A stretch of 64,000 bases of DNA from Methanoculleus frigidifontis (GTDB lineage Archaea > Halobacteriota > Methanomicrobia > Methanomicrobiales > Methanoculleaceae), in NCBI RefSeq assembly GCF_030464345.1, contig NZ_VCYH01000001.1, positions 248,001-312,000 of the forward strand, read 5' to 3'. The position numbers and the translations under genes are program-made. The notes under the pieces are model-generated. The model was given only the letters and a program-made list of their open reading frames with translations, ran no database searches and had not been told where the DNA came from. Below, one piece after another: positions 877 through 47,976 of this stretch; the first letter of the stretch is position 1; each line of letters begins with the position of its first letter.

Positions 877-1030
877 TGCTGGTACGGTATCGGGGCGGCG
901 TCAGTTAAGCGTTGTCAAAGAGCACCCGCAAGCGCTCTTTCCGCCTCGCCGAGGTCTTGCGAATGCGCTACGTTTAACATGGATGAGCGTCCTTGACGAG
1001 ACAAACCGCCGATTCGCGGAGGAATGCATG

Positions 1031-1258
1031 ATGGTGAAAGTGACAATCGACCGGGAAGAATGTATCAGCTGCGAGGCCTGCTGGCTGCTCTGTCCGGAGT
1101 TCTTCGAACAGAATCCCGAGGACGAGAAGAGTCAGGTCGTCGAGGAATTCCGGACCGGCGGTGACCCGGCGGAGGGTGATGCTCCTGAGGGAAGCGAGGC
1201 GTGTGTCCGGGAGGCTGCCGATGAGTGCCCGGTGACGGTGATCTTTGTCGAGGACTGA
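1031..1258 (+). CDS. Ferredoxin, [4Fe-4S]
   Basis: A small acidic electron-transfer protein. The motif CISCEACWLLCP gives the C-x2-C-x2-C-x3-CP arrangement, and a later C...CP pair near the C-terminus (CVREA...ECPV) completes the single-cluster ferredoxin pattern seen in archaeal and clostridial-type ferredoxins. The upstream in-frame start at 983 is unlikely: GGAGGA at 1018-1023 is well spaced for the ATG at 1031 (an adjacent ATG at 1028 is also possible). It probably serves as a low-potential electron carrier for methanogen oxidoreductases; its specific partner is unknown. Confidence 0.85.
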   Translation: MVKVTIDREECISCEACWLLCPEFFEQNPEDEKSQVVEEFRTGGDPAEGDAPEGSEACVREAADECPVTVIFVED

Positions 1259-1325: not shown

Positions 1326-1468
1326 TGCCTGAGGGAGGGATCGCACCTGAAGGTGCATCGCCATGGTAGGGTGAATGCATAAGCCGAGCCGGTACAAGGC
1401 TTATGTGTGACAAAAACACCCTGCCACAGTCCGAAATGCACCCAGGGTATGTATTTCTCCCTCGGGCA
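1326..1468 (+). ncRNA. Structured RNA family 1, copy 1
   Basis: About 143 nt that folds into a four-way junction. P1 pairs 1326-1336 with 1458-1468 (11 bp, one G-U). P2 is GCACC-TGAA-GGTGC at 1343-1356, extended by GAT/ATC. P3 pairs 1365-1373 with 1417-1425 and 1375-1385 with 1398-1408, with loop GAGCCGGTACAA. P4 pairs 1434-1440 with 1450-1456. Copy 2 (1737-1879) keeps every helix with compensatory or wobble changes. No reading frame is conserved between the copies. I do not recognise an Rfam family; it is not tRNA, SRP RNA or RNase P RNA by motif. Confidence 0.75.
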
Positions 1469-1708
1469 CCCCGTTCTTCTTCGGTTCCAACCTATTTTGA
1501 CCGGCGATGTTGACGGACCCTGGGAGCATGCCGCATCGACCTTTGGTCGTGCACTGTATACGTTCTTCTCCACGGCCCGCCGTCCCGGAAGATATTCTCG
1601 TGCGAGCCTTCCAAAGCCGCACTCTTCACCGTTCGTTTGCCGTAATCGACGACGAGCGCGGCCGTTACACACCCGATTGTCATTGCTGCGGCAGTGGTAA
1701 AAGAATCA

Positions 1709-1716
1709 TTATATAC
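1709..1716 (+). promoter_or_regulatory. TATA box of structured RNA copy 2
   Basis: TTATATAC, followed by the same ACTATAGAGTCTCTGG context as in copy 1. Its centre is about 25 bases upstream of the P1 stem at 1737. Confidence 0.6.
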
Positions 1717-1736
1717 TATAGAGTCTCTGGAGTGCT

Positions 1737-1879
1737 TGCCTGAGGGAAGGATCATACCTGAAGGTGCATCGCCGCGATGGGGTGAATGCATAAACCGAGC
1801 CGGTACAAGGTTTATGCATGACAAAGACACCCCACCGCAGTCCGAAATGCACCCAGGGTATGCATTCAACCCTCGGGCA
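1737..1879 (+). ncRNA. Structured RNA family 1, copy 2
   Basis: The second copy starts 411 bases after copy 1 and has the same length and fold. The long P3 arm is a perfect 11-bp stem here (ATGCATAAACC/GGTTTATGCAT), whereas copy 1 has a G-C in place of one A-T and two G-U pairs. In the lower P3 stem an A-U pair of copy 1 is G-C here. In P4, G-U becomes G-C. These paired changes support the RNA as the conserved product. It lies between copy 1 and the convergent DUF421 gene. Promoter duplication suggests two independently transcribed genes. Confidence 0.75.
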
Positions 1880-5371: not shown

Positions 5372-5850
5372 TAGAATTTCCTGTTCTTCGCGGAAATTCA
5401 GCCGCATGGGCGTGCATGGGAGAGAATCGTGCGCGGTGCCGCGAGTGGCGTTGTATGGGTGAATATATGTCTGTAGTCTGTCCGGTTGCCTCTCGCCGTT
5501 CCGCCTTCTGCAGGAGCAGGGCGGTGGAACAAATACGGTCGAAATATTGCTCATATGCTCTCAAACTCCTGTTTATTTTCGGGAAAATGTTCGCGCGGCA
5601 TCCGGCGGATGCCTGCTGCGGCGAAAAGGTTATGCAATAGTATTTCTCAAATTATAGGTATTAGAGCGCAGCGCTATACGGTAGTTTTGCGGGGCAATCC
5701 TGAAAATAAAAGAAATGCTTGGTATATTCCCTGGCTTCTGAAGCATTGTTTGTTAATTCCCCGTCCTCTTTCCGGCAGCCCGTCGCCCGCCCGGACCCGG
5801 TGGGCAGACGCACGACAGCGAGATCGTTTCAGTAACAGGCAGTGAATTCC
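5372..5850. other. Intergenic region between divergent hxlB and lhr
   Basis: About 480 bases with no credible gene. The centre (about 5560-5760) is clearly richer in A+T than the flanks and holds TATA-like stretches. These could carry the promoters of the two divergent genes. I see no RNA fold that I can support. Confidence 0.4.
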
Positions 5851-8478
5851 ATGGACAGCACTACAGCAGCGGCAGGCGACGAGGCGATCCTCGACCTTCT
5901 GGACGAGAATGTCAGAGAATGGTGTATACGAACCTTCGGCGGGCGCGATGCGCTCTTCACCCCGCCGCAGCGGATGGCGGTCCCGCTCATCCACGACGGA
6001 CAGAACGTCCTGGTATGCTCGCCGACGGGTTCGGGGAAGACGCTCTCTGCGTTCCTCGCGATCATCGACGAGCTCGTGGCGCTCTCGCGGACCGAAGGCC
6101 TCGACGACAGCGTCTACTGCCTCTACGTCTCCCCCCTAAAGTCGCTCGCGAACGACATCCAGAAGAATCTCGCCGTGCCCCTCCGCGAGATCCGCGCCGT
6201 CATGGAAGAGCGCGGCGTTTCGTGCGGCGAGATCCGGCACGCCATCCGCCACGGCGACGTCTCACGCGCCGATAAGGCGAAGATGCGCCGCAAGCCCCCG
6301 CACATCCTCAACGTCACGCCCGAGACCCTCGGCATCCTCTTAAACTCCCCGCGGTTTTGCGAGAAGCTCAAGACCGTCCGCTGGGTCGTCGTCGACGAGA
6401 TCCACTCGCTCGCGGGCTCAAAACGGGGCGTGCACCTCTCGGTCAGCCTGGAGCGGCTCGAAGCGCTGATCGGAAAACCCGAGGGCGGGTTCGTCAGGAT
6501 CGGCTGCTCCGCGACGATCGAGCCGCTCGACGAGATCGCCCGGTTCCTCGTCGGCGCCGGGAGAGACGTCTCGATCGTCGACACACGGTTCGCCCGCGAG
6601 TTCGACCTGCAGCTCGTCTGCCCGGTCCCGGACCTGATCGAGGCCTCGCCCGAGGAGGTGAACCTCCGGCTCTACGATATCGTCCACCGGATGGTGCAGG
6701 AGCATAAGAATACCCTCATCTTCACCAACACCCGGAACGGCGCCGAGCGGGTGCTGCACAACCTCCGCGTCCGCTACCCGGGCTGCTACACCGAGGAGAA
6801 CTCGGGCTGCCACCACGGCTCGATGGGGAAGGAGGGGAGGCTTGCGATCGAGGAGAAACTCAAGTCCGGCGATCTCCGGGTGGCGACCTCCTCGACCTCG
6901 CTCGAACTCGGGGTGGATATGCCCCACATCGACCTCGTGCTGCAGATCGGCTCACCGAAGTCGGTCGCGGCGCTCCTCCAGCGGATCGGCCGTGCCGGCC
7001 ACCGCCTCGGCGAGGTGGTGAAGGGCAGGATCCTCGTCCTCGACCGCGACGAGCTCGTGGAGTGCGCGGTGATGCTCCGCGAGGGGCGGGACGGGTTTGT
7101 GGACCGGATCCACATCCCGGAGAACTGCCTCGACGTCCTCGCGCAGCACGTCTTCGGGATGGCGCTCGAGGGGCGGTGCAGCCTCGATGCCGTCCGCGCC
7201 GTGGTCCGCCGGTCCCACTGCTACCGCGACCTTGCCGAGGAAGACCTGATGAGCGTCGTCCGCTACCTCGCCGGAGACTACGCGGGGCTTGAGGAGCGGC
7301 ACATCTACGCGAAGATCTGGCACGATCCGGAGACCGGGATGATCGGCAAGCGCGGCCGGAATGCCCGGATGATCTATTTCCTCAATTCCGGGACTATTCC
7401 CGACGAGTTCTCCTGCGACGTCCTGACCCGCGACCAGCAGTGGGTCGGGACGCTCGACGAGAAGTACCTGGAGCGGATGAACAAGGGGGACGTCTTCGTC
7501 CTCGGCGGGCAGCGCTACGCCTTCGCCTACCGGCGCGGCGGGAAACTCTACGTCGACCCGACGACCGCCCGGCCGACGATCCCGAGCTGGTTCTCGGAAA
7601 AGCTCCCCCTCTCCTTCGACCTCGGACTCCACGTCCTCTCGTTCAAGGAGATGATGATCCGGCGGATGCAGGACTCCGAACCCGAGGCCCTCGTCGCCCA
7701 CCTCCTGGCGGAGTATCCGATCGACGAGAACTCCGCCCGGAGTATCTGCGAGATCTTCGCCCAGCAGGTGCAGTACCTGGGGGAGGATGCGATCCCGACG
7801 ACGGAGCGGATCGTCGTCGAGGAGCAGGCCGACCTGACGAACCGCCGCCGCCTCTACTACGTGATGGCCAACTACGGGCTGCGGTTCAACGACGGGTTCT
7901 CGCGGATCGTCGCCTACCTCATCTCGCAGGAGGTGACCACCAACGTCTCGGTCGGGATCAGCGATACCGGCTTTGCCGTCTCGCTCCCGCTGGAGAAAGA
8001 GGCCGACATTCCCGGGATCGTCGCCCGGCTCCACCCGGGGGGATGCGAGGCGATCCTGGAGACGGCGATCGACAACACCCAGCTCCTCAAGCGGATCTTC
8101 CGGATCAACGCCTCGCGCTCGTACATGATCCTGCGGAATTACCGCGGCAGGCGCAGGAGCGCCCGGCGGCAGCAGGTGAGCGCGGACATGCTCATCTCGT
8201 TTGCCCAGAGCCTCGAGGACTTCGCGGTGATGAAAGAGACCTACCGCGAGGTGATCGAGGACAAGTTCGAGGTGGCGAATATCAGGGCGATCGTGGAGGG
8301 CGTCCGGTCGGGCGCGATCGCGGTGGCGCCGACGCAGGCGCTCTCCCCAAGCCCCATGGCCTTCGGGATCGCCACGCTCGGGATCAGCGATGCCGTCTAC
8401 GTCAAAGACAAGCTCTCGATGCTCCGGGAGTTCCAGCGCCGGGTGATCTCCTCGATTGCAGGAGATGTTCCGGCGTGA
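5851..8478 (+). CDS. lhr: ATP-dependent helicase, Lhr core family
   Basis: About 875 residues; the ATG at 5851 is preferred, with an in-frame GTG at 5842 possible. A superfamily 2 helicase with Walker A SPTGSGKT (residue about 60), DEIH Walker B (about 184), SATI motif III, and motifs V/VI in LGVDMPHIDLV and QRIGRAGHR. The winged-helix and Lhr-specific C-terminal region follows. Archaeal Lhr acts on forked DNA and DNA:RNA hybrids in repair. Its stop overlaps the start of the phosphoesterase gene (GTGA). A second Lhr-like gene lies at 42560. Confidence 0.92.
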   Translation: MDSTTAAAGDEAILDLLDENVREWCIRTFGGRDALFTPPQRMAVPLIHDGQNVLVCSPTGSGKTLSAFLAIIDELVALSRTEGLDDSVYCLYVSPLKSLANDIQKNLAVPLREIRAVMEERGVSCGEIRHAIRHGDVSRADKAKMRRKPPHILNVTPETLGILLNSPRFCEKLKTVRWVVVDEIHSLAGSKRGVHLSVSLERLEALIGKPEGGFVRIGCSATIEPLDEIARFLVGAGRDVSIVDTRFAREFDLQLVCPVPDLIEASPEEVNLRLYDIVHRMVQEHKNTLIFTNTRNGAERVLHNLRVRYPGCYTEENSGCHHGSMGKEGRLAIEEKLKSGDLRVATSSTSLELGVDMPHIDLVLQIGSPKSVAALLQRIGRAGHRLGEVVKGRILVLDRDELVECAVMLREGRDGFVDRIHIPENCLDVLAQHVFGMALEGRCSLDAVRAVVRRSHCYRDLAEEDLMSVVRYLAGDYAGLEERHIYAKIWHDPETGMIGKRGRNARMIYFLNSGTIPDEFSCDVLTRDQQWVGTLDEKYLERMNKGDVFVLGGQRYAFAYRRGGKLYVDPTTARPTIPSWFSEKLPLSFDLGLHVLSFKEMMIRRMQDSEPEALVAHLLAEYPIDENSARSICEIFAQQVQYLGEDAIPTTERIVVEEQADLTNRRRLYYVMANYGLRFNDGFSRIVAYLISQEVTTNVSVGISDTGFAVSLPLEKEADIPGIVARLHPGGCEAILETAIDNTQLLKRIFRINASRSYMILRNYRGRRRSARRQQVSADMLISFAQSLEDFAVMKETYREVIEDKFEVANIRAIVEGVRSGAIAVAPTQALSPSPMAFGIATLGISDAVYVKDKLSMLREFQRRVISSIAGDVPA

Positions 8479-47769: not shown

Positions 47770-47854
47770 GCGAGGGTTGCCGAGCCAGGTCAAAGGCGCT
47801 GGGTTCAGGGCCCAGTCTCGTAGGAGTTCACCGGTTCGAATCCGGTCCCTCGCA
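47770..47854 (+). tRNA. tRNA-Leu (anticodon CAG)
   Basis: An 85-nt class II tRNA. The acceptor stem is GCGAGGG/CCCTCGC with discriminator A. The D arm is GCC...GGC, the anticodon arm CTGGG-TTCAGGG-CCCAG reads CAG, the variable arm is CTC-GTAG-GAG and the T arm is ACCGG-TTCGAAT-CCGGT. CCA is not encoded. No intron. Confidence 0.95.
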
Positions 47855-47976
47855 CATTCTCTCTTATGAAATGTTATTCTGGTAGCCTTTGGTAGATCGC
47901 ATTTTTCGCTGCAGTTGTCGGGGCTCTGGTTTGAGTGCTGTGTAAGGTTACGTACTCGTGGTGCCCCACACGTGGG

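Follow-up and report, generated by a model that had tools for sequence, protein, structure and literature searches.

We have very little doubt that the sequence found twice between positions 1326 and 1879 of the window (the whole 64,000-nucleotide stretch of archaeal DNA analyzed here) is a functional structured RNA. It forms a new RNA family, which lies in none of the Rfam families tested, and this novelty is not that of a proven new kind of mechanism. We lean somewhat toward the fuller reading that it is a stand-alone, trans-acting RNA of the Methanomicrobiales, which has its own TATA promoter, is built from a closing helix (P1) and one or three modules, and has a scaffold or titrating role. 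Our computations show the gene family and where it occurs, the RNA strand, the secondary structure with its modules, and the promoter pattern; the transcript, pseudoknot, partner, and function are what we infer. The first-pass annotation of the window had proposed an unrecognized functional structured RNA, and this proposal is now supported by homologs, by covariation above controls, and by the absence of an Rfam match.

Two RNA Copies in the Window

The two copies show 87% identity across 143 nt in a pairwise comparison within the window. They lie where the first-pass annotation had placed them, at 1326–1468 and 1737–1879, and the TATA box that it described ahead of each copy is present in the sequence. 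Measured from helix start to helix end, the RNA body is 141 nt in both. The features are as follows (R3 is the module model described below).

983–1258, plus strand: gene for a single-cluster ferredoxin (Fer4_15/Fer4_13 by Pfam), upstream, syntenic in the window's family
1297–1304, plus: TATA box of copy 1, TCTATATA, by sequence; an A-rich BRE-like stretch (1292–1296) precedes it
1327–1467, plus: copy 1, one-module form (covariance-model match 150.7 bits, rough E 1e-30; fold z = -6.5, equaled by no shuffle)
1327–1337, plus: 5' strand of P1, GCCTGAGGGAG, partner 1457–1467; pairing conserved in homologs
1352–1357, plus: 5' strand of P3, GGTGCA, long-range partner 1437–1442 (TGCACC); covariation UA/CG/UG and GC/AU
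1359–1439, plus: inner module of copy 1, with P4, P5, loop, A-rich bulge, and CCGAA tail (covariation; R3 match, rough E 8e-13, the copy being among the sequences from which R3 was built)
1367–1373, plus: 5' strand of P4, partner 1417–1423; 12 of 12 P4 pairs of the module model changed on both sides
1375–1385, plus: 5' strand of P5 (11 bp), partner 1398–1408; 10 of 11 pairs changed on both sides, 89% of cells paired
1390–1393, plus: CGGT, invariant core of the apical loop (family form CGGY); 2.0, 1.8, and 2.0 bits at C, G, and G
1409–1416, plus: A-rich asymmetric bulge GACAAAAA (family: GACAAAGA), unpaired yet conserved, 1.2–1.8 bits at A, A, G, and A
1457–1467, plus: 3' strand of P1, CTCCCTCGGGC, partner 1327–1337; pairing conserved in homologs
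1468–1482, plus: probable terminator of copy 1, pyrimidine/T-rich, ACCCCGTTCTTCTTC; T-run interrupted
1708–1715, plus: TATA box of copy 2, ATTATATA, by sequence and homolog TATA pattern
1738–1878, plus: copy 2, one-module form (covariance-model match 163.4 bits, rough E 1e-33; fold z = -7.4, equaled by no shuffle)
1770–1850, plus: inner module of copy 2 (R3 match, rough E 1.5e-14, this copy likewise being among the R3 sequences)
1879–1893, plus: probable terminator of copy 2, T-rich, ACCGCTCTTCTTACG; T-run interrupted
1929–2477, minus: DUF421/YetF gene, downstream and convergent (Pfam; synteny)

We rejected the tandem pair as an ancestral state: the paired matches of family f5 are parts of one longer RNA (see below), whereas the two copies in the window are distinct genes that each have a promoter of their own. 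A coding function was also rejected: the lengths of the homologs (136–145 nt) differ by single nucleotides, so there is no shared reading frame. A search of the whole window with Rfam 15 (4,227 families) at the gathering threshold matched only the tRNA-Leu at 47770. At E ≤ 10 the RNA region gave one chance miRNA match far below threshold and nothing else, and at E ≤ 1 seven homologous loci gave no match within the RNA; the first-pass annotation likewise could name no known family. No relevant paper on structured RNAs of methanogens or Methanomicrobiales was found in the open-access literature searched.

Homologs and Distribution

The first-pass annotation had suggested a covariance-model search of Methanomicrobiales genomes, and such searches did find homologs with covarying helices, the covariation of which exceeds both shuffled and slid controls. 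The model R1, built from six sequences and searched against 199 genomes of the order, matched in 34 of them; a second model, R2, matched in 49 genomes; and the module model R3 matched in 77 of 232 Methanomicrobiales genomes, i.e., a third. The class-level search covered the same 232 genomes as the order search, and R3 had no match outside the Methanomicrobiales in a 393-genome sample of the phylum, all matches lying within the order. Viral contigs contained no match to one exact 18-nt pattern taken from the three-module form. Genome G098 (L176) falls in family f2 with the multi-module form and was probably misnamed when it was deposited as Methanoculleus sp. SpSt-1212.

In a DNA search, the sole other genome of the window's genus yielded two copies, and two genomes of genus g3 (Methanoculleus) yielded fragments at the same place, between the single-cluster ferredoxin gene and the DUF421/M42 peptidase genes. 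Detectable RNA was absent from two near-complete Methanoculleus genomes (G012 and G032) in the R3 search, indicating that the RNA is not essential everywhere. There is usually one RNA gene per genome, while the window's genome has two and its sister species three, one of them at a different site. This third copy (G037, L004:1508–1648) lies away from the ferredoxin locus and has kept its TATA box. Such copy numbers might suggest that the sequence is a MITE-like palindromic repeat or small mobile element and not an RNA gene. However, the usual state is a single gene per genome, syntenic across the family, with compensatory changes at most pairs and a fixed distance to the TATA box, and we regard a mobile element as extremely improbable.

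Secondary Structure of the One-Module RNA

Copies 1 and 2 each fold as a single long rod. In copy 1 the predicted helices are P1 (1327–1337/1457–1467), P2, P3 (1352–1357/1437–1442), P4 (1367–1373/1417–1423), and P5 (1375–1385/1398–1408), and the homologs favor this rod over the four-way junction (P1 to P4) of the first-pass annotation, which we rejected. Among 36 one-module homologs, the competing long-range helices are paired in 78% of cells, against 59% for the two local hairpins that we took the junction model to require, and the key long-range pairs covary (UA in 17, CG in 11, and UG in 5; GC in 20 and AU in 10). The compensatory changes that had been reported between the two copies are real, and the homologs bear them out. 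In the R1-derived alignment, 38 of 49 pairs have a compensatory change, and double changes occupy 175 cells against 57 after shuffling (0 of 500 shuffles as high), counts that lean toward the model because the alignment was fitted to it.

The nine outer pairs of P1 are 98.5% paired in the 36 homologs, four of them with compensatory change. P1 had been described as an 11-bp closing stem of copy 1; the stem is there, while its restriction to copy 1 does not stand, as P1 is conserved in all full-length homologs. One U-G pair of P1 is kept in 35 of the 36 homologs, and this nearly invariant pair, together with many G-U exchanges, establishes the plus strand as the RNA strand.

Modular Organization and the Three-Module Form

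Judging from the sequence comparisons, the RNA is modular: P1 encloses one inner module in the window's family and two or three recognizable ones elsewhere, with a length of ~140 nt in the former and about 315–340 nt in the other families. In family f5, R3 matches occur ~100 nt apart, three per RNA. Reading of the loci resolved the apparent tandem pairs of R2 matches in f5 into modules within one longer RNA. The f5 RNA is a single unit of 335–340 nt consisting of a TATA box, GCCTCAG, three modules ~100 nt apart, and GGGGCA; one f5 genome has a contig in common with a Methanolinea record (G111 with L082), and the 340-nt form is that of the Methanolinea group. This layout is shared by families f4 and f2, where two or three modules can be recognized; the RNA measures 314 nt in two of the f4 genomes.

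We aligned 40 modules, taken from RNAs of both the one-module and the three-module form, using only their sequences. In this alignment 22 of 23 pairs changed on both sides, with 250 double-change cells against 81 in shuffles; 85% of cells pair (62% shuffled), and the covariation score is 0.70 (0.27 shuffled; 0.08–0.14 in slid controls). By the number of pairs that show a double change, the alignment is only weakly above its shuffles (29 of 500 reach as many), while no shuffle among 500 reached the other measures. For the 340-nt form, a MAFFT alignment of 13 RNAs, which was fitted to no model, gave 41 of 76 pairs with compensatory change, 143 double-change cells (52 shuffled), and a covariation score of 0.46 (0.21 shuffled), figures that are favored by the fact that the structure under test came from the same alignment. 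In all three covariation sets the main measures lie above 500 shuffles and above every slid control. Both copies in the window carry the covarying P4–P5 module with the CGGY loop and the A-rich bulge, and both have a P1 that starts with GCCU(C/G)A and ends near GGGCA, with a TATA box at about -32.

Conserved Unpaired Core

In the module, unpaired positions are more conserved than paired ones (1.05 and 0.67 bits, respectively). The most conserved positions are the CGG of the apical loop, the bulge AAAGA, and the tail G..CCGAA. The loop GAGCCGGTACAA had been called nearly invariant in the first-pass annotation, but only its CGGY core is; the flanks differ between families, and CGG alone is fixed. 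The apical loop of copy 1 (1386–1398) is similar to the D-arm of the tRNA-Leu encoded in the window (47770–47855). Mimicry of this D-arm (GCCGAGCCGGTACAAGGC), striking in copy 1, was rejected, as the sequence in other families is YCNAAACGGC..AAGR, without the D-arm pattern.

The loop CGGT (1390–1393) of copy 1 is complementary to CCG at 1431–1433, and 69 of 78 modules allow CGGY to pair with RCCG, the variable fourth position included. A loop-tail pseudoknot would probably form in the module. The sole informative change is an exchange of U-A for C-G between families, essentially one clade-level event, and the covariation has a shuffle p of about 0.03 overall and 1.0 within clades, which makes the pseudoknot a proposal. 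Part of its CCGAA tail competes with the end of P3.

A short RNA with its own promoter and an exposed conserved loop could be a base-pairing regulator, the loop or bulge of which pairs with mRNAs while the rest is a scaffold for stability. Indeed, many archaeal small RNAs act by base pairing. The unpaired conservation spans loop, bulge, and tail, however, as expected of a tertiary or protein-binding core, and the loop flanks vary between families around a fixed CGG, so that we consider this reading unlikely. A catalytic RNA or the RNA of a core RNP, with the pseudoknotted module as its active unit, would fit the pseudoknot-compatible conserved core and the strict covariation across the order. 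It matches no Rfam ribozyme, however, and is present in a third of the genomes rather than in all, and we think such a role rather improbable.

Promoter and Neighboring Genes

In 50 of 52 homologous genes, the best TATA-like 8-mer begins between -34 and -30 relative to the GCC of the RNA, and its match score is at least 6/8 in 34 of the 52, compared with ~2% of random sites. TTTT occurs ≤35 nt downstream in 37 of the 52 (7% background). The TATA box at a fixed distance, usually with a T-run after the RNA, points to a putative stand-alone transcription unit.

The ferredoxin gene lies directly upstream of the RNA in the loci examined in the window's family, except for the extra copy of G037 (L010), and there is no ferredoxin match at some loci of this family (e.g., L038, at a contig end). 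In G002 the ferredoxin gene and the RNA were co-duplicated as a unit ~3.8 kb apart (L040:1678–2160 and 5527–5994). The M42 peptidase locus of G012 (L172) has neither an adjoining ferredoxin nor a DUF421 gene, and a different gene is found there instead. We rejected the ferredoxin as a functional partner: synteny, the co-duplication in G002, and the joint absence in G012 argue for linkage within one family only, and f5 neighbors differ. A gene with a DUF5591 domain, a domain of archaeosine synthase, is near the RNA in several f5 genomes (L043:146–838, L044:515–1213, L051, L054, L055, L056, and L059).

The gene downstream of the RNA is convergent in those loci of the window's family that have an identified downstream gene, and also in the f5 locus L048, indicating that the RNA is not the leader of that gene. 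This bears on a ligand-binding cis-regulatory RNA that controls an adjacent gene, i.e., a riboswitch-like element with tandem aptamers in the three-module form. An aptamer would resemble the conserved unpaired core, the possible pseudoknot, and the tandem modules, and in one family the RNA comes after the ferredoxin gene and shares its strand. A riboswitch lies upstream of a same-strand gene, however, and the next gene is convergent in the window and at L048; the RNA is also preceded by a TATA box of its own and in most cases followed by a T-run, and its neighbors vary from family to family. We therefore judge cis-regulation to be highly unlikely.

Proposed Mode of Action

In the proposed mechanism, each locus would be transcribed from its own TATA promoter, with likely termination at the T-rich stretch directly past the closing helix. 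P1 would hold the ends of the RNA together around one module in the window's family or three in sister families. Each module would consist of stacked P4 and P5, the apical CGGY loop, the A-rich bulge GACAAAGA, and the 3' CCGAA tail; loop, bulge, and tail would form a compact core, probably with the CGGY/RCCG pseudoknot, and this core may bind the same partner once per module. The partner would most likely be a protein, and the RNA an RNP scaffold or a protein-titrating RNA, as is suggested by the stand-alone nature of the RNA and by a module that recurs in it and exposes an invariant core. We put forward this scaffold or titration mechanism tentatively, at somewhat less than even chances. We would only speculate that the module is the core of a new RNP or RNA machine specific to Methanomicrobiales, which would use one active unit in relatives of Methanoculleus and as many as three per molecule in sister families.

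To our knowledge, few structured non-coding RNAs have been found in methanogenic archaea beyond the universal tRNA, rRNA, SRP RNA, RNase P RNA, and guide RNAs. The present family spans an environmentally important order with very strong covariation, and methanogen transcriptomes may contain an unannotated, possibly abundant RNA. The finding is also larger than the first-pass annotation supposed; the three-module version lies in sister families, beyond its view. Because the number of modules varies naturally from one to three, copy-number-dependent binding is directly testable.

Comparison with Known RNAs

The RNA resembles archaeal box C/D and H/ACA guide RNAs, SRP RNA, and RNase P RNA in being a short structured archaeal RNA, but unlike these, its copies are unmatched in Rfam, both at the gathering threshold and at E ≤ 10. 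Box C/D, H/ACA, and kink-turn identities were rejected, as visual inspection located neither a kink-turn nor an ACA box. Inspection of the homolog and module alignments revealed no conserved RUGAUGA/CUGA pair of the box C/D kink-turn, and P4 and P5 are separated by an 8-nt bulge on one side only. The one-module form, a long rod with internal bulges and its own promoter, is reminiscent of bacterial 6S RNA; however, it has no Rfam match, the polymerase is archaeal, and the three-module form is branched, and we rejected a 6S-like rod for this last reason.

In RNAs of the CsrB/RsmZ type, repeated hairpins titrate a protein. Likewise, the repeated hairpins with an invariant loop core described here would offer several sites for one protein, but they lack GGA loops, have a much stricter long-range structure, and are not homologous to CsrB/RsmZ by Rfam search. 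We know of no CsrA in this setting. OLE, GOLLD, and ROOL are large ornate non-coding RNAs, the functions of which are obscure or reside in the RNA alone, with cryo-EM structures (PMC12286853). The present RNA is, like them, stand-alone, strongly covarying, and structured, without coding function; unlike them, it is archaeal, smaller (140–340 nt), built on a repeated module, and without Rfam similarity. By the tests made it is a member of neither group, and it appears to work most like these large ornate non-coding RNAs or the protein-titrating RNAs.
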